From Deuterostichococcus epilithicus (Eukaryota; Chlorophyta; Trebouxiophyceae; Prasiolales; Stichococcaceae), in the NCBI GenBank assembly GCA_033439295.1, contig JAVTLE010000008.1:1364001-1428000 (forward strand): a stretch of DNA of 64,000 nt. The letters are read 5' to 3'. How positions within the stretch are numbered: the stretch's first letter is position 1; each line of letters opens with the position of its first letter. The position numbers and the translations under genes were made by a program. The notes under the pieces are model-generated. The model saw nothing but the letters and a program-made list of their open reading frames with translations. It was not told the origin of the DNA and ran no database searches. Of the stretch, positions 20,103 through 36,920 are shown one piece after another.

Positions 20103-20694
20103 CATGGCATCTGAACAGCAGCTGGAAGAGTCCTTTTTCCAGGGCCACGTTGGTTATTGAGCTTGCATGTCGCATTGCACTGCTGCTATTAGTGGCAACA
20201 ATTACAAGTCGAATGAGGACTGGACGGGTGATATCATGTCAGCACACAGCTCCCCAATGGACCAACACCGTGTGCTTACGGCTGCATCAAACTACAGAAG
20301 TTCGAGTCGTCAATAAGCGAGCTCAGATCTAATCAGTTCGGTGAGGCTCAGCAGCCCTATTGCCAGAGACTCACAGGCCGGCAGTCACCTTCAACGCCCA
20401 GAGGACCAAGCTACCTAAGCAAGTTCCAAGGTCTGCGGCGCCATTGCAGGCGCAGCCAGTACAGTGATCACTGCCACTCCGCAACGAGGTGTTACAGGCC
20501 GCCGGCGCCCTGCGCCTGGAGCAGTGGCCCCATGCGAGTGCTGAACAGCTTTGACAGCGTCACCTGCAAGCCGGCAGAGACGTGCAGCGTCAGTGCACGA
20601 TATGAAATCTTGCATAGGCAATTAACGAATGTCCACTCTTAAAACTTGCCGTCGACATGTAACGAGGTGGTGCAGAACGACCGCATTGCTGCTT
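20103..20694. other. Convergent intergenic region, XPF (+) and BIG ARF-GEF (-)
   Basis: About 590 bp holding the two 3' UTRs. TTACA at 20492-20496 (TGTAA on the minus strand, about 200 nt past the BIG stop) is a possible polyadenylation signal for the ARF-GEF. No coding segment was recognised. Confidence 0.55.
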
Positions 20695-23600
20695 TCAGCA
20701 GCGCCACCTCCTCACCTGGACCTCTGGCGGCGCATGTTCGCACCCAATCAGCTCCGTCAGCAGCGGGAAGAACTCCTGCAAGCATTTCAGACATCCTGTC
20801 GGATGACAGAGCCTGCCGATACAGCAGCGGCACGAAGCTGACAGGCGGCAAGGGTTCCAGGATGCGCGGCTGCCGTCCGCAGCGTCAGAAGAGGCCTGGC
20901 TCGGCAGGGTGCCACATGCAAGGCGGGCTGCGTGCGTCACCACCGTCAGGCTGGCACTCCTCGGAAGGCCGCTGCGCCCGGCACGTTCCATCAAGGCAAG
21001 CAGAGTAAACCCCTAGTCGAGCGCACCGCAAGGTGGATGCGGAAGGCGTCGTCCGAGAAGGTGTTGAGGGCGCGCAGCGTGGCCACCACCAGCGGCGCCA
21101 GCGCCCTGAACTCCTCCCTGTTGCTGGCCAGCTGCAGCGGCACGCCTGCGGAGCGAGGCAGGACGGGTCAAGCATTGTGGGCTGTGCTTCTGGAGGAGAC
21201 GCCAGGTGCTCGTTGGTACAAGCTGCCCAGCACCTCCCGCAGTGGTGCGCCGACTGCTGCGCTGCGGGTGTCTGTCAGCCGAGCAGGCCGCGGAGAAGCA
21301 CACCACAGCGGCACAGCTCAGCTGCAGTCTGTGGCAGTCCTGCGCGCATGTCGTAAGCAGGCGCTCACCGTTGGCGTCTGCGAAGGTGGGCGCAGGCTCC
21401 GGGCCGTCGTCAGGCTTGACATGCTGGAAGCGAGTCAGGTTGGCGGTGCACAGCCGAACCAGCCGAGCTTCTGCGTCCGCCGCCTGATGCAAGCCGCACA
21501 TGACTCAGCCCCAGCAGTGGCCCTTCGGACTGACTTATCTCAGCGGAACGAAGCCAGGCAAGTGCATTGGAGAGCAAAGCGAATCCGCAGGTGAGGTGGC
21601 CAGGGCAAAACAAATGCAGCGTTGGGGGACCGCCGACACCGCGCCATCAGTGGGCAGCGCGACTGCTCATTGCAGGCGCCCTGCAACAGGGGGCACACGC
21701 AGAGACGCGCGCCTGGGCGTTGGCCAGCGGCGGCTGCGCCGTCTGCACGTGCAGCAGCATGGACAGGTAGGCATGGCTGGCCTCCGACTCCAGGCGCAGA
21801 AGCGGCGGGTCGCCCAACGCGCGCTCCTCTGGCACCTGCTCCGTTGTGACAGGATTGTCAACCAGCCGAAGAATTGCAGAAAGTTGTAGGGTTTGGGGTT
21901 GGCGTCATCATTACGCTGCGTCGCGGCGAGGTGCCACCCCTGGCCGAGGCCGCAAGAAGCCGGCGGGACAGCCACAACGGTCGCAGCAGCAGCCGCGCAG
22001 GAGGAGCAGCACTGCTGCGCGGCGCGCAGCGGCTTGGCGTCGTCGAAGAGGCGCGCGTTTAGAGCTCAAAGGGGCGCTGCACAGCACGGCCGTCAGGGGG
22101 ACAGGCGCAAGAGACGCAGCGGCTGCGTGGGGAGTTGGCGGCGCAGTGTGCCGCGCCATTCCATGCGGTCGTCAGCCCGGGGGCAGGCTTGGCAACATTC
22201 TACATGTTTCGACACGTTAGGCACCCCTGGCAGGCTTCACGGAGGGCCGGCAAACACAAGAGGCACTGCCACAGCGGGATGGCGATGCCTCGCCTGGTCG
22301 TCGGCCTGCGCAAAGGCGAGCGCGCGGCGGAGGCCCATGTCATCGTCGATGCGCTGCGCGTGCGCAGACAGCGCCTCCAGCGTGTCCAGCATCTCCGTCA
22401 GCGCGCGCGCTGGCATGCGGCCGGCGTGCACCGTGTGCACCTCCCCACACGCCTGCACCAGCAGCAGCTGCACCGCCGCCCGCACCCGCACCTGCGCAAC
22501 GGTGTCAACATGATTGACACTCATTTTCTTTTAAGTGCCCTGCAGCGGCCGGTAAGAAGGACTGCCGCTGCGATTGCCCCTTAGCTGGGATGCTGAGAGA
22601 CTGCAGCCGCTTCTCGAGCACCGTGGAGCTTCGAGCAGCACGTTTGAGCGCGCACAAGGTTGGCTCCCGGATCAGCCAGCTCACCCTGGTCGTTGCATAT
22701 GCTATTCCCGATCTCGTCATCATGTTGCTGGCAACGCGGCGCAGGCTCAGGAACCTGGTGTCAACAGGTCGCGACTCACCAGGCCCAGGCGGCGGGCGCC
22801 GGAGCCCGTGGCCAGGGACGGCTGCCGCTGCTCCGCGTCGTCGCCCGTCTCCGAGCCGCCCGTGTCCGCCGATGCGCGGCCGCCGCCTGACACCAGCTCC
22901 TCCACCTGCACATCAGAGCGTGCCGATGACGTCAGCAATCCGGTGTAGAGTCCTGCAACAAGATATCCTCCAGCAGAGGCCGCAATGCCCTGCGCCTCCG
23001 TGCGTGCTCGCCGCAGCCTTCGGAGGGTTTGCGTGGGTGCCCGGTCTGGTGCACCCTGCAGCGGCACAGGTCAACGGGCAAGGATGGCTGTTTGGGGGGG
23101 CTGCACCCCGTGGCGATAAACCACTTTATTTGCACCAAAAACCATTAACATGTCTGCACAGGGAGCCCCCGCTGGCCGACCCAGCGGCAGGCGTGCGCGC
23201 CTCGGGGAGGGTGTCCAGCGCGGCTGCCGACAGCGTGTGCATGCACTGCGACCAGACGTCGTCGCTCATCTCGCCGCCGGCCGCGGTGATGAGCCTCGTG
23301 AGCGCCGCGACGCCCACCGCCGCCAGGCTCTGGTGCGGCCGCCTGGGGATGCAACACAACGACGGTTCGTGCGACTGCGAGCCATGGGAGGAACCAAAGC
23401 CGCGTGCAGCATCAAGAAGTTGCCCGGCCGCACAGGTCTGCAGGGTAGCGGCAGTGCACCACAGCGGCTGGAGGCAATCGAGCAACAGGTGTCCCCGAGG
23501 TTGCACAGCAGCTCAGAGATGCGGGACAGCAGCCATGCGCCACAGGCTCCAGAGTGCCTGAGAAGTGCCTGTTCCAGTGACAGGCACCCCCAAACTATTT

Positions 23601-26600
23601 GGCGTCCAAGCGGCGGGCGCACCGGATGAAGTTGTCCAGCAGCGACAGGATGCGGGACAGCAGCGGCTGCACTGCGGGGTAGAACTGGACCACCAGGTCC
23701 ACCATGTGCTGAAGGCACTGCGTGCACGTGTCGTACAGCCAGGCGTCCTCCTCCGCCCGCCTCGCCTCGTCCGTGAACGTCGTCGTGTCCGTCACCTGCG
23801 GGTCGCGACTGCGGGTCGCTGGCGCCAGGGCTTGGAGGCAGCAGTGACCAGGCACCTGGTCGCAGGCGATGGCACATGTGGCTCTTCCGGAGCCTGCAGC
23901 AGCGCCGCGCTGAGGAGGAAAGACATTGTGTTCTGGACCTGGGGGGCAAACGCTGTCTGCAGGCAATACTGAAGGGACTCGGATGCGCTGCTGTAGGGCG
24001 CGCCTCGGCCCTGACGTGGTCGAAGATGGATAGGAGCACGCTGTCAAAAATGCGCGTCCAGAACTCCGGGGTGAACGCCGCCCCATGATACGTCAGCGTG
24101 TCGAACAACACCTCCAGCGAGCTGTACCTGCGCAGCCCAAGGAGAAGCCGGGGGTCGGACAACTCATATCTTCTTCTGGAGAGCCGCTGTCAAATGGTTT
24201 GGCAGAACGCATGAGCTCCCACTAGACTCAGATGTCGCCTGCTTGTTCTGAACTCAAAGCTGCAGCTCCTGTCTCAGGCCCGTGGACCTGCTGCAGACAC
24301 CACCACAAGCGGCCTGCCGCCTGCGCTCGTGAAAGGAGAATCCGGATGCGTACGGCCGGGGCAGGCGCACCGGATGTCGGCACGCGGGTCGAAGGTGAGC
24401 TCGGACAGGCCGGCGAGCAGCGGGAACCAGAAGTACATGTGCTCGTCCTTGTCCGTGAAGCGCAGCCCGCGCCCCTTGGCGGGCGTGCCCTCGCCGCCCT
24501 CTGCCGCATCCGTCTCCGGCGGCAGCACCTGCCACGGAACATAAAGGGGGGTTCGAACGAGGGCTTTTCATGCAATGACCCTTTCTGCGGCAAGTGAAAC
24601 ACCCACACTGGATGCGCACCAATAATAACCAACGATCCCTCTTGCAAAGGGCAGCTCAAAGGCTGCAGCGGTGGGATGCGAGCGAGCCGGCCACACATGT
24701 GCGCGCATCGACCAACAGCGTCACTGGACCGGCATCGAGCACAGCATCACTGAACCGGCATCAAGCACTTGACCATGAGGGTGCACCTGCGGCGGCGGGG
24801 TGGCGCCGCTGTCCCGGGTGGCACGCTGCGCCTCCTCCTCGCTCAGCTGCGCCGACCCCGCCTCGTGGATGCGCAGGCCGCGCATGCTCACCGATGCCGC
24901 GGTGCCCTCCGGCAGCGTCTCCGTGTCACCTGCGGCGACGCGTCCATGGCACGAGATCAGGCCTCGACCGGATGAATCAGGCATCTTCACCAACGTGCGT
25001 CTGTGAGCAGTGTTGCCTGCAAAGCCAGTGCCCGGCACCACGCCGATCAGGTGGCTCGGAATCCGCTTCATGCTTCCACAGCGCTGGCAGAAGAAGGCGC
25101 TGGCCGGAGCGCACCGATGTCACCCTCGGCGAGCTTCATGGCGCAGAAGCGCAGGAACGCGATTGCGTTAAGCGCAACGTCCAGGCTGTGCGGGTTGTTG
25201 GTGAAGGCGATGAGGCAGTTGACGCAGTCGGTGAATGTCGTCGTCTCCGTCTCCGTGATGTAGTGGAAGTGCTCGCGCACGATCTTTTCGATGGTCTCAA
25301 ACGCCAGCCGCACGATCGTCTGCTGCTCGTCCGCCGCGGCGGTCGTGAACACCATGAACATGGACTTCCAGCCGGACTTGACGTTGCCCACGCGCGCGAG
25401 CACCATCTGCGACACGCACCTGCAGCGGAGCAGCAATGGCGACGCCGGGTCAAGACAGGCCGGACGGCGATCCGCTTGGTCGGCATTCCTTGGCCTAGGC
25501 TGGCAGACTGCGCTGCGAGCCTGCAAACTGGTTCGACAGCACCATGCACCCGTGGATGCCCGGTTGTGCAATTCGTGCATGCTGATCACACAGCCGTGCA
25601 GAATGCCCCAGAAGAACACACAGAAACCCCAAATGCACGCACCGGATGATGAGCTCCCGGATCTCCAGCGCCTTGGACTGGCGCATGACCACCACGAAGG
25701 GCTTCAGGAAGTCGTTTTGGAAGGAGAAGTTGGCCAGCTCGTCCCGCTCCAGGAACTTCATGGCCAGCTGCCGCATTGAGTCCACGCCGTACATGGCCAC
25801 CTGCGGGGACGGGGCGGGCTTCCGGTTCAAAACTGACTGCAGACGTGCTCAGAACGACTGCACAGCATGCACCCCCAGTGCTGCGATGACCGAAACATAT
25901 GCAGTCCTGAAGAGGTGATTGCTGCAGTAGGGTTTTAGTAAACAGGAGGGTGCACACCTGCAGGTTTGGGTGGCAGCCGACCTCCACGAAGAAATCCGCC
26001 AACACCGCCCAGATGCGGCTCCACACCAGCCTGCGGGCGCCAAATTTTTGTGTCTTCGTGCAGCAGCGAAGCACCAGGACAGCAGCTTTGCTCGAGTTGC
26101 ACATTTCCATCGGTTGAGCCGCGCCTCTATGGGCAGCGTCTGAGAGGCATACAATGTGGCAGAAGTTGGACACGTGGCAGGAGTCGAGCATTGCGGCAAT
26201 CGCAAAGCCGAGCCGGGGGCAGAAGCACGCACCTGATGCGGGTCATGTTGAAGTGCGCGATCTCCACGATCTTGGTGAGGGAGTAGACGCGAGGCGCGCC
26301 AGGGGCCCGCAGCTCCTCCCGGGCGACCGTGCACAGCGCGCGCACAAACTCGACGATGGCCTCGCTGTTGAGCCGGTCCGACCGCACGAAGATGCGGTTC
26401 AGCTCCTGCACAGGTTAGCGTTTTCAGAACGACCTGGTTTCACCTCGAGTCCAGCTCGGCCTGACTTCTGTCTCGACAGATACATGGCTGACGGCTCCGT
26501 TGGTCCATGAGCCTGGAACCTCTTGCTGCATGCAAGGGACATGCCACAGCAGCCTGGCCGAGTGTGCCTGCTATTGGACAAGTCTCACAGCACTCGTCAG

Positions 26601-29600
26601 ACGTGCCTGGGGGTCGATCTCCCGCAGGATGGCGGCGGCGGGCGGCGTCAGCTCCGGGCGGTGGCCCTTGCCAGCAGTGCCTTGGAAGAAGGACGGCTCC
26701 GGCAGCAGCTCGTGCCCGTTCGCCTGCTTGTCGCCTGTAATTTTGGCGGAGAGATGCCCTCAATATCGAGCATGCCTGGAATGGGTCTCATGCTGCCAGG
26801 AGTCTGTGCAGTCAATGACCCTGAGACGAGCCGGACAGCGGCACTGTTAATCGCATGAGACGCCTGCAGCAGCAGACGAGTTTGCAGGTGGCGAGTCCAG
26901 TAAAGAGTCCTGCATCACCTTCGGGCTTGGCAGGCTTGGCGCTGGCAAACAGGCCGCGGCGCAGCTTGGAGAACCCGGAGGGGGAGGCGGGCTCCGGGGT
27001 CGGCGGCGCGAATAGCGCCATGTCCGTGATGCCGCCCGCCGCCATCTGGCTCAGCAGCTCAAAGCGCGAGATGCAGCGCAGCACCTCCGGCCAGACGTCC
27101 TGCATGGCATGTGTGAAGCAGGTTCATCAGCACAGGCGCTGCACATGTCGACAGGGACATCCTGCGCTGCCTGTACGGTGATTCTGGACTTGTGCACGCC
27201 AGGGTTATTCGGGGCCTACAAAGGGTGTGCTTTCACGGCGGCGCAGCTGCAATGCCTGACTGGCATGCGGATCAGGGGGCGGGTCGCACGTGGAGGTGGT
27301 TGCCGTTGTCCTCGGCGATGAACAGCATGGAGCGGAAGGCCTTTGCGGACTTCTGCTCCATGCTGGCCGGCGTGTGCAGGTTGGTGAAGCGCGCCAGGCT
27401 CGTCACGAACCTGAGACGCCGCAGGCATGGCACGTCAGACTTGCTGCTGGGAAAGGCCCTGCTGCGCACCCCACCCACCGCCAAGACAGCGCAGAAGCTG
27501 CACAGGCGTGTGGGCAGCTCGCCATGCGCTTGCTGGGTGATTGAGGGATGATCGCAGCCCCTCGTGGCTCCAACTGGCCGACGTAGTTTCGAAATATCAA
27601 GCAGAAGCAAAGGGTCGCCTCACGTGTTGCGCAGCATGTTCATGTCCAGCAGGCTGGTGATGCGGATCGCCGCCACGAAGCCTGCCAGGCACAGCCCCAC
27701 CGTCTGCGCAGCACAGGCATCCTGTGAGTCTCCGCATCACTGCACAAATCAGTCAGGCCACTCGCTCCGTCTGCAACTCCTTCAGATGGACCGAACCTCG
27801 GCTGCAGTGTTGCAGGACATAGGAGCACCTTCTCGGGTCCCAGGCGAAGGCGTTTTGACAAGATTGTCAGGGTGTGGTCCGGCAGCACGCACCTTGCCCT
27901 CGTGGAACTCCTCGAACAGGACGGAGAAGGCGCCGAGGAAGGGCGCCCAGGAGACGTCCAGCATCGGGCGCACCGTCTCGCCCTCCACTGCACTGAAGAA
28001 GGTCGCCCCCTTGGCCTGGTCCCTGCAGGGCCGCATGCAGAGCCAAGTCAGGAGAGGCACCGAATACAGCCTTCCCCACCAGCGCACATCCGCATTGGCC
28101 AGGCATGAAGCGCAGGCCCCATATCAATGCATTTGTACGCTGCATGAGCAGCGGCAATTCCAGGTTGGCATGAATTGACCAAGGTGAACGCACCGCAGGT
28201 AGTCGTGGGTGCGGCGGATGGCCTCGTCGGACGGCTCGTTGGAGTAGGCCTGCTTGCGGCCAGGGATGAGGGACAGGATGCTGTCCATCCAGGTGACCGC
28301 TTTGGCCTGCTGCTCCTTGGCGCTCAGAATGTCCGTCGGGTTGTCCTGCAGCGGCGCCGGTGTGCAGGGCAGTCAGCGGTCAGCAGCCAAATTCCAAAAG
28401 CAATGCCGCTGTTGCGAATTGGGCCGTGCAAGCTTGTTGGCTGTGCTCCGACCCAGACGACGAATGCTGTGAATAGTGAATGGAGATCCCAGTCCCAGTC
28501 AGCAGGCCCAGACTGGTGCAAAGCGGCACACCTTCATCTTGATTTCGTTGTGGACGATGCGGTCGTAGACGGCCTCCATGTAGTCCTGCGGCAGGTCGCC
28601 GCCATCGTTGATGCCCCGGTTGTTGCGCAGGAAGTCCTGCGCAGCAGACACAGCCATCAGGGTTGAGCATCTGCTCCAAGTAGAGCGCCTGATGAGGGCT
28701 CGCAAGAGGCCACCAGCTGACAGCCAAGCAAGCAGGCAGTGTCCGCACCCTGGTGTGCATTTGCAGCTGGTTTCTGACAGCAAACAGCACAGCGTTGCGG
28801 TACAGTTCAGGGTAGTTTAGTTGCACTTGTCTTGAGCCGAAGGGGAGCGCGCGGGAGGTGGGGGTGGCACCTCCTTGGACATCTTGACTTTGACGCCAGG
28901 GTTGTGCGCATCGGTGTTGAGCATGATGACAGAGTAGGCCAGCACATACGCCACGTCCGCGCTCTTGAAGGTGTCCGGGTTGCAGTGCACGAAGCGCTCT
29001 GCAAACTTTTCCATCAACCGGTCGATCTTCTGTGCCTCGCCCGGCAGCCGGAAGCCGTCTAGGAAGCGCCTGCGCATTCGTGAGCACATAAATTAGTCTA
29101 AGTTTCGTCGGATGATAATCCGGGCCCGTCGACTGACTAACTTCAGTCTTTTTTCTTGGCACAGCGCAAGACAAGAGCACGAAATGGTCGCGCTGTCGCT
29201 GCGGGCGATTGGCCACAGATACCTCATCAGGCCCGGTAAACCCCCTTCCAATGAAACCAGTGTGAATCTTGCAGCGCAGCCCCACAAATGCACTGCATCA
29301 CCTGATGGCGGCGTCGAAGTCGAGGCTGGTGAAGTCCATGGCGTCCACGTAGGCGTGCATAACCTTGAGAGCCGGCTCCTCCCGCTCGCCCAGGTACTCG
29401 CCTATGACGGCCTTCTCCAGGCCAGAGGTCTTGGCCAGGAACTTGGCGACTGCCTCCGCCTCGGCCCCCAGCATGCCCTGCAGACATGGAGTCAAGGCAC
29501 GCGGTTCAGCCTGTGTCGAGGAAGGTCTGCTGTGTGGCGTGACGGCGGCACTGAGGCGACACTTGGCTGGAAGCATGGCGAGCGTCTCCGCCTCGCCGCC

Positions 29601-32600
29601 CAGCATGCCCCTCCAGACGAGGGGCACAACAGGTACTTGCGGAACAGCAAGCGATGTCAGAAATGATGGCACATGGCTGGGGCAGGTCCGCTTTTGCGCA
29701 CAGTCAGGCAGGCACTCGAATGGCAGATGCACAAGGCAGTCCTCATATACGGTGCCTGCTGGCAGAGACTCGTCCCCAGACACCCCACCAATCAGAGAAG
29801 TGTGTGCGGTGGAGCGTTGCCGAAGCATCGCTGCAAGGGAGGCAAGGCGCACCTGCTCCTGCATGAAGGCGATGCCCTTCTTGGGCTTCTTGTTGAACAG
29901 CGCGATGCCCTGCTGGAAGCCCGTCTTGTATGCCTTCCAGCTTTCCAGCAGCGCCGCCTCCTTGTCGGGCCCGGCCGCCGCCTCGCCTGCGCCAATTACA
30001 AGGACGGGTGTATGGAACAAACAGACAAGAAAGCTTGTCGCCTCGCCTGCATTTGAAATGGGAGATCGAGATGGACTGAAGTTAGTGCACAGTAAAAGCA
30101 GCCAGGCAGTCGGAGTGGCATGCCGTAGAAAGTGAAACGACAGCCACACCCCAGCGAGACGGGCGCGTCTGCCCATCTGCTTCTGTCCCAGGAAGTACTG
30201 TCCGACCCTGCCCTGAGGCTGGGCGCCCTGAGGCCGACAGCTTTAAAGACCTCTGGCCATTCAGAGGAAGATCTGGAGCACGCGTATGCGCAGCGTCCCC
30301 TGTCGCACCGGCGGCGGTGGAGTCTGAAGCGGCATCGTCGCCGACGACGTCCACACCCGGCGAGGCTGCCGCCACCAGCGCGGCGGCGGCCAGCGACGCT
30401 GCCGTCTGCGTGTTGGTGTACCACTCCACGAGCGACCGCAGGATGTTGACGCAGCACTGCAGCGCCTGCCGCGCAGAGGCAGGTCGAGGAGCGTGACGTC
30501 GCATGCGGAGCGGTTTTGACAGAAGCTCAGCGCACTGTTCCTGAGTGCGCATGCGTGCGCGTGGCATTCACAATACTCCAGCTGGTTGCAGACCGCTGGG
30601 ACCTCGCTCGGATGCCTGCGACAGAGCCGCGCCGCCGAGAGCGAGCCATTGAATGTTGCAAATCGCCGCTCGTGATGCACTGACCGTCTTGTCAGGGTTT
30701 GTCAAGGCGCGCACCAGGACACGCAGGGCGCGCTCGTCGTCCTGCTGCTGCACCGGAGCGTCGGGCGTCGCGCCCGTCTGCGCGATGCGCACCAGCGCTG
30801 TGACCATGCGCTCGAACAGGTTGGCGCCCTCCAGGTCGCAGTCGTAGTTGACAAACAGGTCCACCTGCGGGCAGGCCGCAAACACTGCGGGTGGATGCCT
30901 GGTGTGGTGGCCAGAGGTATGGCGGCATCGACGACGGCCAGAAGACACAGTCGCACAGCAGCTTGACATTGTCTTCATGGGTGTTGCTGGTTTCACGGCA
31001 GGCACAGGCATCGGGAGTGGGTTGAGAAATGAGTCGCTGCGCCTCGGGCCTCGAATCCGCACCAGCAGCTGGCCGTCGCCAGTGAGCGCCTCTAGGCAGC
31101 GCAGTACCACCCCCCGCTGCCCGAGGTCCACCGGTGCGGCGCCTGCGAGCAGGTCCCGTCACACTTTCGAGGGTGTATGAAATATCTCCTGGCATGCCGC
31201 CTACGCTCCGGCTTCATACATGGACGGTCAGTGCCTGAGGTGCCGGCTGAGCAAGCGCAATCTTCACAGGAGACGCCAGGGATGCAGCCACTTGAGAGCA
31301 GAAGCACCTTGGCCCGGCGGCGTCTGGCCCGCGGGCGGCGGCTCGATGGAGCGCAGCAGGATCATTGGGAAGAACACGCCGACCTGCATTGATCAGGACC
31401 CAGTGGCAAGCTTAGAGGCAGCTAAACATCGGTTCAGAGGTGGCCAACGCGCACGGCTGCGCCTGTTCTGACGGGCGCATGATGATGTGGATTGCTGTGC
31501 TTTTCGAGGAGCAGCCAGGACCCACCTCGGCCTTGAGGGAGTGGCGGAACTTGGAGATGAGCGTCAGGAAGATGGAGCAGCTGAGGCGCAGCGCATGCGG
31601 GTTGGCGGAGGCGCAGTTTTTCAGCAGGCTCAGGCACAGGTAGTGCTTGATGCCGTCCGCAAACTTCTCCGAGCTGGCAAACACGCGGCCGCTGTTCTCC
31701 AGCAGCACCTTCAGCAGCTCCAGCGCCAGCACCTGCGCACACGGGCAGCGGTCGCAGGCTTGGTGGCGGTCCTGAAAGCGGATTTTCGAATGCGGCACCT
31801 TTGCAGATGAAGGCGGGCGAGCCTCAATACATAGCGAACCCAGTGGCACGCAGCTACGCGGCTACCATTTTCGTGGCCTTAACACATAGAGAACCCAGTG
31901 GCACGCAGCTATGCGGCTGCCATTTCGTGGCCTTGAGCTCCCTGCAGGCACGATGCCGGAAGTGTGGCCGCAAGCCTGCTCATCGCAGCCGCATTGCCTC
32001 CGGTCACCTTGCCGCGCGTGGCGGTGAGGTCGGTGCCGGACGACGCGTCCGCGGTCTTGATGGACAGCTTGCACAGCGCGCGGAACACCAGGAACGCGTC
32101 CTTCTGCAGCACGCCGTCCAGTGCTGCCGCCTTGGCGCCCGACGGCGTCACGGGTGCGGTTGCGCCGCCGTCCGCGGCCGCTGCTGCAGGTGTGCCGTCT
32201 GCGGCCGCTGCTGCTGCACGTGCAGCCGCGGGCGCGGCGCCGACGTGCAACTGCGGCCGCGGCGTCGACGGGCCGCTGGGGGCGCCGTTCGCAAGCTGCT
32301 CCGCCCCGGCTGCGGCTGGCATGAGGCGAGTCTCAAATGTGCATCAGCGCTGTTGCCACTGGGGCAGGCACAGTGGCTGTGCCCCAAAGATATGTATCGT
32401 GCACATAGCAACGCGCCTGCATGGGCAACCGGAAACTGTGCAGCCGTTCACAGTGCACACTGAGATCAACTTTTGAACCGCACCTGCTGCTGCATCGTCT
32501 GGCGCTGCCGCCTCGGCGTCAGGTGCGCCGTCTGCGTGTGCGGCAGCGGCGGGGGCATCCACTGCGCGCAGCTGCTTCATCGGCGAGACAGGACTGCCGG

Positions 32601-35118
32601 GGCCGTCCGTGCTGTTGACGCGGCCAAATGCATCGTTGACAAACGCGTCGTTGAGCCCCGTCTCGATGTCTGTCGCGTAGAAGCCGAAGGGGTCCACCGT
32701 CGAGACCACCTGCGGAGCCGGCAGCAGGCAGTCGGCAAGTGACAACCGAACAGGCCGTCAATGCGTCTGCCATGCCTCCAATGCCATGCAGACGACGTAG
32801 AACGGCTTCACTGCTGCCAATGTAGCCAAGGACTCAGGAGCACTGCGACTGCTGTGAAGCTGCGACGGCGCCAAAACCCTGCCGACCAAATTTCGCCCTT
32901 CTCCGGCCGCTCCCCTCCGCACCTCGTGCAGGAAGTTCTGGACGAAGGCGGACACGGAGGAGGCCTCCACGGGCGGCAGGCCCAGCACGTCGGTGACGAC
33001 GATGGGCGGCAGGCTGACCGCCTCCGAGTGGTGCTCCATGCGCTGGAAGACGATGTTGACCATCTGCGTGAGCGACGCCTTGGCCGTGTTCTGGTTGACC
33101 TCGCTCTTGGACAGCAGGAAGATGTTGTAGCACGTCCGCACCGCCTGCAGCTCGCCGGACACCTGATCTCAGGCTGGCGTTGCCTGAGGGTCATGTGCCA
33201 CCCCGCTGTGCAGAAGGCTGTGCAGTTTATGGTACGAGCAGCTGCTCCATGCTGCTGCTTCATGCCGCAATTGGCGCCAGCATGTTTTGATCAGCATGGC
33301 CATGAAGCTTAGGAACCGGCTGCAGGTGTACCGTCGAACTCACCAGCAGCAGCGCCTGCCCGTGGATGTGCAGGGTGTTGGAAGTGACGGCGGTGAGGAG
33401 GCCCTTGAGCACGCGCAGCTCCACGCCGTCGTCTGCAATGTCGTCGCATCGACACAGCAGCTCCACCGCCTGCGCCTGCGGCATCCCAGACACAGCACCC
33501 TCGGCCTCGATGGGACTCAAGGGAGCTCTGAACTTCCGAGTCGAAGCAAAGGTACACCAACCATGTGGGGGATCCTTCACATCCATCACCGCTCAAGGCT
33601 CGCAGCTTGGGACGCATGATCGAGGACAAGCCACTCAGAGCTTGCGCAGCATAAGTGGGGCACCTGTGGCGGCAGGGCCTCCGCGACGTCCACGGCATCC
33701 TCGTCGTCGTCCTCCGCCGCGACGCGCCGCTTGCCCTTGGTCCCGGAAGCGTCGCGCCGGTGATTGATCGTGTACACCCGCCCCTGCACGCACAGAGGCC
33801 TTCGTCGGGTCTGGGCAGAATGCGTCTGAGCGTGAGCGAGCGCCTGATCTGTCCAGGAGAGTTTCTCTCCCCTCTCCAGCAGGGCAATGACGAGGTGATG
33901 CAGCAGAGTCCCAACCAAATCGTATCTTGCGCTGCATCATGCCCCGTGTACAGCATGCTGACCGTCTCTGCTGTGTATGCAATGCACGGTCGCCAGGCGG
34001 CTGTGAGTGCACCAGCAGCAGCAAGCAGGTGGCGCCTCCCACGGTCCCAGACAGAGCATCGACTCGCCTGCAGCGCCTGATGTGCGATGAGGCGCTGTAT
34101 GAGGTCCAGGGCCACCTCCACCAACGCCGTCTTCCGCGTATCCACCGCCTGCCGCAGGACCTCCAGCAGCGCTGCGGCAACACCACGCGGTCATGCTGGG
34201 CAAGTCATGAGGCACAGCACGCCTTTGTCAGCATTGCCCAAGGTTAGCTGACATCTTGTCGCCTGCAGGCTACGCCCTCAGGCGCTGGTGGCGGCAGCGC
34301 TGCTTTGGAGTCATCACTGGCACCTGGCGTCGGCAAGCCATTAGAACATAAGTCGATGCTGCACAAGCAGGCACCCACTCTGGGCAGCTTCCTCCGAAAG
34401 GGCACGCGGGCTGGTGATCGGCGGCGCTTCGTCCTGCAGCGTGATGCGCATCACTGCCTCTGCCGCGTCTGACTCTGTTGCCGGCAGCGCGTGCTCGCCG
34501 GCGACTGGCAGGTGCGCCGCCGCCACAGAGTCTGTCGTCCCCCGACCCTCTGCTGCAGCCGCTGGCCCTGCCGATCCGCCATCAGGTGCGTCGCCTGCCC
34601 GTGCCGTGCCCGCAGTGCTGCCGCTGGCTGCGCCCTCGGCTGGCGCTCCCTCCTCTGCAGGTCCGCCCGCCGCCGGGTGACCTGAGGGTGGATGGTTCGC
34701 TGCCTCTTTTTCGAAGCCACTCGACTGCAGCAAGGTAGAGATCATTTCCAAGGTGCACATTTTAGAGAGAATGCATGACATTCCCACCTGTATCTCATCC
34801 ATATAAGGCTGCTCACACACCTGCTGGAGCGGAGGAAGCTGTCGGTTGCGCGCCATAATCGCCCAGCAGGGTCGGCAGCCGCTCAAGCAGCTCCTGCAGT
34901 GTAACACGAGGACAGGGTTGATGTCTTAAGTCACTATGTCCTGTGCTGACAATCTGCTGTGAGCTGACGCCCGCTCCGGCTGTTGGTTACCAGTGACAGA
35001 CGGGTGCGCCACTCTTGACGCGCACCTTCGTCTCCTGCCGCAGCGAGGCGTACTTGCGGCCGGAGGCTGCATCACATATCTTCTCGAGCGCGGAGCCGAT
35101 GAGCTGAGCCGCGACCAT
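20695..35118 (-). CDS. BIG-class ARF guanine-nucleotide exchange factor (Sec7 domain)
   Basis: Large ARF-GEF of the BIG/Sec7 family that loads GTP on ARF GTPases at the trans-Golgi to drive coat assembly. About 39 exons, about 1990 aa. 5' part: 35026-35118, 34821-34893, 34406-34681, 34068-34171, 33664-33783, 33344-33475, 32923-33144, 32484-32709, 32008-32309, 31526-31732, 31308-31383, 31063-31142, 30685-30864, 30282-30465. Sec7 region (residues ~775-965): 29853-29986, 29302-29477, 28871-29069, 28532-28636, with [13 protein letters not shown] carrying the catalytic Glu, and LNTDAHNP. 3' part: 28194-28345, 27893-28022, 27624-27703, 27290-27410, 26919-27099, 26607-26734, 26233-26405, 25958-26030, 25643-25800, 25115-25419, 24787-24929, 24371-24528, 24016-24127, 23623-23795, ~23150-23342, 22780-22905, ~22294-22491, ~21713-21835, 21369-21483, 21027-21145, 20695-20775. 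DCB ([20 protein letters not shown]) and HUS/HDS segments match plant BIGs. Exons after 23623 are less certain at their edges. Start ATG lies 20 nt after the LYR-gene stop. Confidence 0.93.
29452..29640. repeat. Partial duplicate of a Sec7-domain exon start inside the adjacent intron
   Basis: The beginning of exon 29302-29477 (minus strand, peptide [16 protein letters not shown]) has a diverged copy about 110-130 nt upstream, within about 29565-29620, that would read [16 protein letters not shown]. The copy is not followed by the remainder of the exon and is not needed for the conserved protein, so it is probably an intronic relic. Confidence 0.7.
31829..31934. repeat. Tandem ~52-bp duplication in a BIG intron
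   Basis: Two adjacent copies (31829-31880 and 31884-31934) share the core GAACCCAGTGGCACGCAGCT and end in CGTGGCCTT, with only a few differences. Both lie in the intron between exons 32008-32309 and 31526-31732. Confidence 0.9.
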
Positions 35119-35138
35119 TAGGGCCGGGCGGCCAGCTC

Positions 35139-35663
35139 TCAGGCCCGCCGCGCCTGGTGCAGAAAATGCTCAAACAGCTTGTCGAACTCCTCCTGCGAGC
35201 GGCAGCGTCGACGACGTCTTGCAGATAGGCGGTTGCCTAACCCAGCCACCTCTCAGGAGCTATGCAGGCACATATGCTGGAAGCTGTTGGGAGAGGATCT
35301 GCAACTTGGCAAATGTTGGCCTACCGTGCAGTATCTGGCCCGGTGTACCACTCTGTTGCGCTCAGGGGTAGGCCGTGTGCTGACTACCTCAGCGATGCAT
35401 TCAAGATGGAGGTCACGGCCAGGTGCGCAATCAGTCTCGGAAACGGGTCGACGACCCACCTGCGGCAATCCTCGCATCCAGGCGACGACGCGTAAGGCTG
35501 CTGCTGTGTCGCCGTGCAAGCGGCTCAGCTCCTCGGCTCGAGTCTCGTTGCGATGCAAGTCGAACAGCTCTCGGCAGTTGTATTCAATCTTCCTGCCAAC
35601 AGGTCGCACCGGGAAGGCCCTTGCCGCACGCAGCAGGTCTCTGTAGAGCTTCGATGCACTCAT
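35139..35663 (-). CDS. LYR-motif (LYRM/complex1_LYR) small protein
   Basis: Small LYR-motif protein. Members of this family act in mitochondria as accessory factors for Fe-S cluster delivery or respiratory-complex assembly, usually with acyl-ACP. Two exons, 35460-35663 and 35139-35192, in phase and with consensus splice sites, give 85 aa. The start MSASKLYRDLLRAARAFP contains the LYR tripeptide at residues 6-8, followed by the conserved GRKIEYNCRELFDLHR helix and a LRVVAWMRGLP segment, then an acidic-basic C-terminal helix. Length and order match LYRM family proteins. No cleavable presequence is obvious. The stop codon is only 20 nt upstream of the BIG ARF-GEF start on the same strand, suggesting one shared transcript. 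The exact family member cannot be named from sequence alone. Confidence 0.85.
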
Positions 35664-36131
35664 GTACCTTTGCAGACGGCGGTGTCGCACTGATCCAGCC
35701 TCTCGCGACCCAGCAACGTCAGGGCTTGTTCCTTGAAAGGGTTTATGCAGCACTTCGTCGTTTTGAGACGATTGTCGCCTCGTCCTATCACACTGCGAGC
35801 CGCGCCAGGGCGCGAGGCAGCTGTTGCACCACTGCTCACTACCTCATCTCTTTGAGCCCTAGCGTCCTGCTTGCAGCGTCAGTGAAGCTCGAGTAGCCCC
35901 AAGACACCCGACTCAACGCCATCTACTTTTCCCGTTCCGAAGTACGCTCCGCCAGGTCGCCGTTCCAGTCTCGGCTCTTCCGTCCGTCCGTCCAGACTTA
36001 GTCAGCGCTCGCATTGCAAAGTTGATACTCGGTTGGTTCGTCTGATCGTAATTCGAATTTCCACCCCCCACAGCGACGCCAGGTTGGCTGAAGCACCTCC
36101 AGTCGTTCAGACGGACCAGCAGTCTGCATCA
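35664..36131. promoter_or_regulatory. Divergent promoter region, LYR/BIG (-) and SelS-like gene (+)
   Basis: 468 bp between the two start codons. This would be the only upstream promoter region for the LYR gene and, if the pair is dicistronic, for the BIG gene as well. No specific element was recognised. Confidence 0.45.
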
Positions 36132-36920
36132 ATGAGGGTTGCATCGCCGGAGGCCGCAGCGCAGCAGGCGGCCGAGGCGACCGGCGCGGCGGTGCCAGAT
36201 GCCGTGGCGCCAGCGCCGGCGGAGGCGCCCACACTGCCGCAGCTGACCGGCCGCGATGCCTTCCTGGCGTCGGTATGGCAGTTTAAGGACCGCTGGGGCC
36301 TCCTCATTCTGGCGCTCGCCGCCGCGGCTGCCTACATCTACTACCAACACTACGCGCCAGCATACAAGCCTCCACGTGAGTGTGCTACATGCTTTGGCAC
36401 TGCATGGTTCCACCACACGCGCCGCAGCCCGCTACATGTATCCGAGCTCATGATGCCGCTGCATGCTTTTATAACGTGCAGCGGCAGCAAAGGCGGCGGA
36501 CTGGGAGGCCAAGCGTCGCGAGGCGGTCGAGAAACAGCAGCACGCGCTGAGTCAGGGTGCCGCGGCGCGCCTCAAGAAGCAGGACGAGGACAAGTTCCGC
36601 GAGCGGGTGCACATCTTAACATCCTCTGCATCCTCCCTTGCGTGCACGAGATAACTGTTTGTAGAGCAGGCAATCCCATATAGGCGTTATGCATGGTGTG
36701 CTTGAAACTGATGCAGGCTGCTGCGCATGCATCAGTGCATGGACCTGACCTTCAAGCGGCTCCCTCGGACCTGAGTATACAGTCTGCTCATTCCCGCCCT
36801 GGGCACGGACAGGAGAAGCGCCAAAAGCGGCTGGAGGAGGACGCCAAGCGGCTGGGCATGACGCACGTCTTCAAGGGCCAGAAGCTGGGCTCATCGGCAA
36901 CGCAGGTCGCAGGTGTATGA
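36132..36920 (+). CDS. Small single-pass membrane protein, possibly SelS/VIMP-like
   Basis: Three phase-consistent exons, 36132-36375, 36482-36606 and 36813-36920, give about 158 aa. An Ala/Pro-rich N terminus is followed by one transmembrane segment (GLLILALAAAAAYIYYQHYA, about residues 57-76) and then a highly charged helix (DWEAKRREAVEKQQHAL, AAARLKKQDEDKFRER, EKRQKRLEEDAKRLG) ending FKGQKLGSS. Order, size and the charged helix resemble SelS/VIMP, which anchors p97/VCP to the ER membrane in degradation of misfolded proteins. No selenocysteine-containing Gly-rich tail is seen before the in-frame TGA at 36918, and a further 3' exon cannot be excluded. The SelS link rests on architecture and a short similarity in the helix, so treat it as a suggestion. 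Confidence 0.5.

Follow-up and report, generated by a model that had tools for sequence, protein, structure and literature searches.

Gallaher et al. are reported to have described bicistronic nuclear loci of green algae in 2021. According to the available parts of Duenas et al. (PMC11291117), such loci are translated by leaky scanning, and they typically place a short ORF1 in front of a longer ORF2. In Auxenochlorella, the median length is 291 nt for ORF1 and 1185 nt for ORF2, and in A. protothecoides the median gap between the two ORFs is 40 nt, compared to 2518 nt between colinear monocistronic pairs (PMC11291117). Over one-fourth of the proteins made from Auxenochlorella bicistronic loci are predicted to be mitochondrial, and both LYR-motif proteins and OST4, a protein of the secretory pathway, are already among the products of such loci (PMC11291117). 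The pairs named as bicistronic in Auxenochlorella include TOM22_SDHAF3 and OST4_FAM32A, both of which are conserved in Chlamydomonas (PMC11291117).

The locus described here joins a LYR-motif gene to a gene for a BIG-type ARF-GEF. It lies in a window of 64,000 nt, the whole stretch of DNA that was analysed, which corresponds to bases 1364001-1428000 of contig C7 in an assembly of 46.8 Mb and 21 contigs. The features of the locus, in window coordinates, are as follows.

35664..35846, minus strand: 183 nt without ATG upstream of the LYR ATG (sequence)
35460..35663, minus strand: LYR exon 1 (ORF1), with the ATG at 35663-35661, residues 1-68 and the motif KLYRDLL (PF05347, 28.4 bits for the spliced protein)
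35193..35459, minus strand: LYR intron, 267 nt, GT...AG, predicted from the frame and the splice dinucleotides
35139..35192, minus strand: LYR exon 2, with the TGA at 35141-35139 (sequence and frame)
35119..35138, minus strand: spacer of 20 nt between the ORFs, without ATG (sequence)
35026..35118, minus strand: first coding exon of the BIG ARF-GEF, with the ATG at 35118 and the start of DCB; 3′ boundary predicted from the GT after ETK
20492..35118, minus strand: entire span of the BIG-type ARF-GEF gene, C-terminal ...TLSKLFSTRMGPLLQAQGAGGL, TAA at 20494-20492; exon list incomplete
Within the BIG gene, minus strand: DCB at the start, HUS box at about 30.8 kb and Sec7 at about 29.9-28.5 kb (Pfam)

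The LYR gene is predicted to be spliced from two exons, with a GTGGGT donor from 35459 and a second exon that begins at 35192 and is preceded by CGCAG. The mature ORF1 is 258 nt long (85 amino acids plus the TGA), compared to the published A. protothecoides median of 291 nt. The 85-residue protein, which carries KLYRDLL as an N-terminal motif, matches the Complex1_LYR family (PF05347) above its cut-off of 24.8 bits. A single-sequence structure model of the 68 residues of exon 1 contains only helices and loops (pLDDT 77.6, pTM 0.55). The top Foldseek match of this model is a chain of a human ACP-ISD11 entry, with a non-significant E value of 1.3. Because further entries for ISD11 and complex I are mixed with unrelated ones, all with E of at least 1, the list as a whole is consistent with a LYRM fold and goes no further. 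NCBIfam and PDB sequence searches of the LYR protein assigned no subtype.

The gene downstream of LYR is, judged by its predicted domains, a BIG-type ARF-GEF. Pieces of the BIG protein that were stitched together by eye match DCB (PF16213, 108 bits), HUS (PF12783, 77.6 bits) and Sec7 (PF01369, 255.8 bits), each above its cut-off, and the domains follow one another along the gene in that order. The exon pieces identified so far sum to 763 codons, a lower bound for the length of ORF2. Among the best candidates listed, Sec7 matches occur in three places in the genome, on contigs C7, C13 and C15. The DCB match runs from residue 9 of the predicted protein, at profile position 12; an earlier Pfam test of a 66-residue N-terminus, partly intronic, gave no DCB match, and it was the longer piece that did. 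Because DCB begins at the very start of the protein, 35118 is a credible start codon for BIG. The residues that the earlier note quoted as the first of BIG are correct in their letters, though they begin at residue 10, after MVAAQLIGS.

LYR and BIG are two complete ORFs on the same strand, supported by homology, and both have a start and a stop codon of their own. Exactly 20 nt (35138-35119, minus strand) separate the LYR TGA from the BIG ATG, as had been claimed earlier. The A. protothecoides medians are 40 nt for bicistronic loci and 2518 nt for colinear monocistronic pairs, so that the gap is far below normal gene spacing, although this reference spacing is not that of the present genome.

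One rival reading is a wrong gene model: BIG would start at some other position, or LYR exon 1 would be joined to BIG by splicing so as to make a fusion. The exon borders come from sequence alone, and upstream of the ATG the BIG frame stays open as far as 35169, both of which leave some room for this reading. It is nevertheless highly improbable, given that DCB starts at residue 9 of the predicted product and that splicing at any of the eight AG sites between 35459 and 35119 that lie in the BIG frame leads to a TGA in the second LYR exon. Since no AG acceptor yields an open in-frame join, a LYR-BIG fusion protein is unsupported. The earlier statement that the two frames differ and that the genes are not fused is borne out.

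It was also asked of this genome whether published bicistronic pairs occur in it. Four families of published bicistronic proteins were sought (REX1B, TOM22, CDC26 and OST4), and in both of the families found, TOM22 and OST4, the published partner lies downstream on the same strand and in the same order. TOM22 and SDHAF3 are separated by 227 nt (G000:C7:2900500-2903500) and OST4 and FAM32A by 61 nt (around G000:C19:2346877-2346939), and neither gap contains an ATG. TOM22 falls below the Pfam cut-off as a fragment and rises above it as a stitched protein; OST4, for which only the last exon was identified, FAM32A and SDHAF3 are each above their cut-offs. SDHAF3 in this genome is itself a LYR-type protein (PF13233). 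REX1B (PF14966) has no match anywhere in the genome, an absence that is uninformative because the control genomes have no match either. One CDC26 match lies above the cut-off and was rejected by eye as spurious, since it runs into a stretch rich in glutamine that seems to belong to a different protein; a second lies below the cut-off.

These architectural features, together with the two published pairs in the same genome, support the earlier proposal of a bicistronic nuclear transcript. The best-supported reading is that LYR and BIG would be made from one bicistronic RNA, to which we assign a probability of about 0.78. A single nuclear pre-mRNA would start upstream of 35663 and end beyond 20492, with neither a separate promoter for BIG nor a poly(A) site for LYR. 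The spliced message would then consist of ORF1 (LYR, 85 amino acids), the 20-nt spacer and ORF2 (BIG). The leader and promoter of such a unit probably lie in the ATG-free 35664..35846 segment and in the 468 nt that extend to a divergent gene.

This divergent gene, on the plus strand with its ATG at 36132, begins 468 nt from the LYR ATG. By eye, its product is small with one hydrophobic, possibly transmembrane stretch, and a Pfam search with it gave no family above its cut-off. The LYR gene and this gene may have a bidirectional promoter region in common.

The main rival holds that LYR and BIG are overlapping monocistronic genes. A BIG promoter would lie inside the LYR gene, in the intron (35459-35193) or in exon 2, so that LYR coding DNA would serve as BIG 5′ UTR, and the LYR RNA would be polyadenylated in early BIG sequence. 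The earlier note saw no room for a promoter, 5′ UTR and poly(A) site, which holds for the 20-nt gap itself and fails for the LYR gene, where BIG transcription could start in the intron or in exon 2. The intron offers 267 nt of noncoding room, and between the ATG at 35273 and that of BIG at 35118 there is no other. In the available parts of the Auxenochlorella genome paper, internal promoters are the predicted source of many complex isoforms (PMC12633428). An internal promoter would, however, leave unexplained the short-ORF1 design that is common to the two published pairs in this genome, and overlapping monocistronic genes are accordingly judged unlikely.

The position of poly(A) signals was considered as a further argument for a single LYR-BIG transcript. 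Trebouxiophyceae are among the classes named for the UGUAA motif in a 2007 survey, in the parts of it available (PMC1868727). On the minus strand, the interval 35663-30000 contains no TGTAA, and one copy lies 288 nt past the BIG stop. As a control, eight stop codons outside the locus were inspected, three of which are ORF1 stops of published or candidate pairs (TOM22, OST4 and the LYR gene paired with RlmN, described below). Some of the loci end less than about 1 kb past the stop. TGTAA lies within 300 nt downstream of just one of them, 117 nt past the stop of an SDHAF1-like gene. The argument was dropped after this control, since genes of this genome do not regularly have TGTAA at their 3′ ends.

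A bicistronic LYR-BIG message would require that ribosomes reach the second ORF, and the start codons bear on how this could happen. At the LYR start, GGTACATGA, position -3 is T and position +4 is A, so that both A/G at -3 and G at +4 are lacking; at the BIG start, position -3 is C and position +4 is G. Judged on these two positions rather than against a genome-wide matrix, the LYR start context is weak, and weaker than that of BIG. Members of this class need not have a weak ORF1 context, because that of TOM22, ORF1 of a published pair, is strong in this genome (G at -3, G at +4).

Few other start codons intervene. The mature LYR ORF1 and spacer contain two ATGs, namely the start and one in-frame Met, so the 278 nt upstream of BIG have 2 ATGs (start included) compared to the 3.3 expected from base composition. 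Off-frame ATGs number 0 in the LYR ORF1 against 0.36 expected (P 0.69; synonymous recoding with BIG codon usage). The scarcity of ATGs before BIG is permissive for leaky scanning and is not significant. Depletion of ATGs was rejected as proof of selection, since it is non-significant in both LYR ORF1s tested (P 0.69 and 0.80).

Provided that the RNA is bicistronic, BIG is very probably reached by leaky scanning rather than by reinitiation. Scanning ribosomes would often bypass the weak LYR start codon, would meet just one more ATG, in-frame and poorly placed, and would then start at the BIG ATG, so that both proteins could be produced from one mRNA. Termination and reinitiation after LYR on the same bicistronic RNA would suit the short 20-nt gap, in line with the association of increased reinitiation with gaps of only a few bp (PMC11291117, parts available). 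The A. protothecoides reporters in the same source show the opposite of what it predicts: a stronger ORF1 context gives less ORF2, and removal of the ORF1 start gives more (PMC11291117). Reinitiation is for this reason considered quite improbable as the route to BIG.

The LYR gene of this locus is one of several in the genome. A genome search with PF05347 gives 8 matches, which were grouped as six genes. The six LYR genes examined further are these minus a weak match at C19:3774818 (18.9 bits, below the cut-off) and plus SDHAF3. Half of the six sit in tight same-strand pairs: LYR-BIG, TOM22-SDHAF3 and a pair of LYR with an RlmN-like gene. For two others, no close downstream gene was evident by eye, and a few hundred bases past the LYR gene on C5 lies a frame on the same strand (by eye).

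The second LYR gene encodes 78 amino acids (PF05347, 58.6 bits, matches at C19:2714238-2714571) on the minus strand of G000:C19:2711500-2717000. Its stop lies 138 nt before the ATG of a same-strand RlmN-like radical SAM gene, and this gap is also ATG-free. Of the two start contexts, that of LYR is weak at both positions, and that of the RlmN-like partner is strong at both. The stitched RlmN-like protein is partial; TIGR00048 is the best of its 9 NCBIfam matches, at 101.9 bits against a full-length cut-off of 290, and its Pfam Radical_SAM match is below the cut-off. From its layout, this pair is a candidate for a further bicistronic locus.

Taken together, the LYR-BIG pair and the LYR-RlmN candidate hint that LYR genes recur in bicistronic arrangement. 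At long odds, LYR genes could even turn up in this lineage as regular members of bicistronic pairs, either in front of long genes unrelated to them (BIG, an RlmN-type methyltransferase) or behind TOM22. Start-codon stringency would then set the output of LYR and its partner in opposite directions, and would link membrane traffic, and RNA modification as well, to mitochondrial assembly factors.

Relatives of the locus were also sought in collections of viral and prokaryotic contigs. Two scans of prokaryotic contigs gave no match, and one scan of viral contigs gave a single match of 20 residues on a phage-like contig, which was judged to be due to chance and is no algal relative.

The earlier note regarded the pair as unusual in kind for coupling a small mitochondrial-type factor to a very long trafficking gene. 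This view is weakened, since a short ORF1 and mitochondrial, LYR-motif and secretory (OST4) members are already known from the available parts of Duenas et al. (PMC11291117). The LYR-BIG pair itself is not named in the parts of the main text available, supplementary lists aside (PMC11291117), and 'LYR' does not appear in the available text of the published version (PMC11892635). No paper that joins the LYR motif, ARF guanine nucleotide exchange and bicistronic loci was found in a limited literature collection. What the pair adds is a locus that is likely to be bicistronic and has a long ORF2, of at least 763 codons compared to the Auxenochlorella median of 1185 nt (PMC11291117). If it is bicistronic, its early stop and many downstream splice junctions pose the question of nonsense-mediated decay, which the available parts of PMC11291117 also raise.

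Among described systems, the CDC26-TTM3 pair of plants and green algae (PMC11291117, parts available) resembles LYR-BIG in that a small conserved ORF1 lies upstream of an unrelated ORF2; unlike LYR-BIG, it was not found in this genome. TOM22_SDHAF3 and OST4_FAM32A have the same design as LYR-BIG in this genome and encode different proteins; they have published reporter evidence from Auxenochlorella, whereas LYR-BIG is known from its sequence. With green-algal bicistronic loci in general, LYR-BIG has in common a short ORF1 followed by a longer ORF2 on one strand, in different frames and across a tiny gap, as well as a weak ORF1 start and an ORF1 of mitochondrial type; intervening ATGs are few in LYR-BIG too, at a number within chance expectation. 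The LYR-BIG pair most likely belongs to this known class, with its known mechanism.
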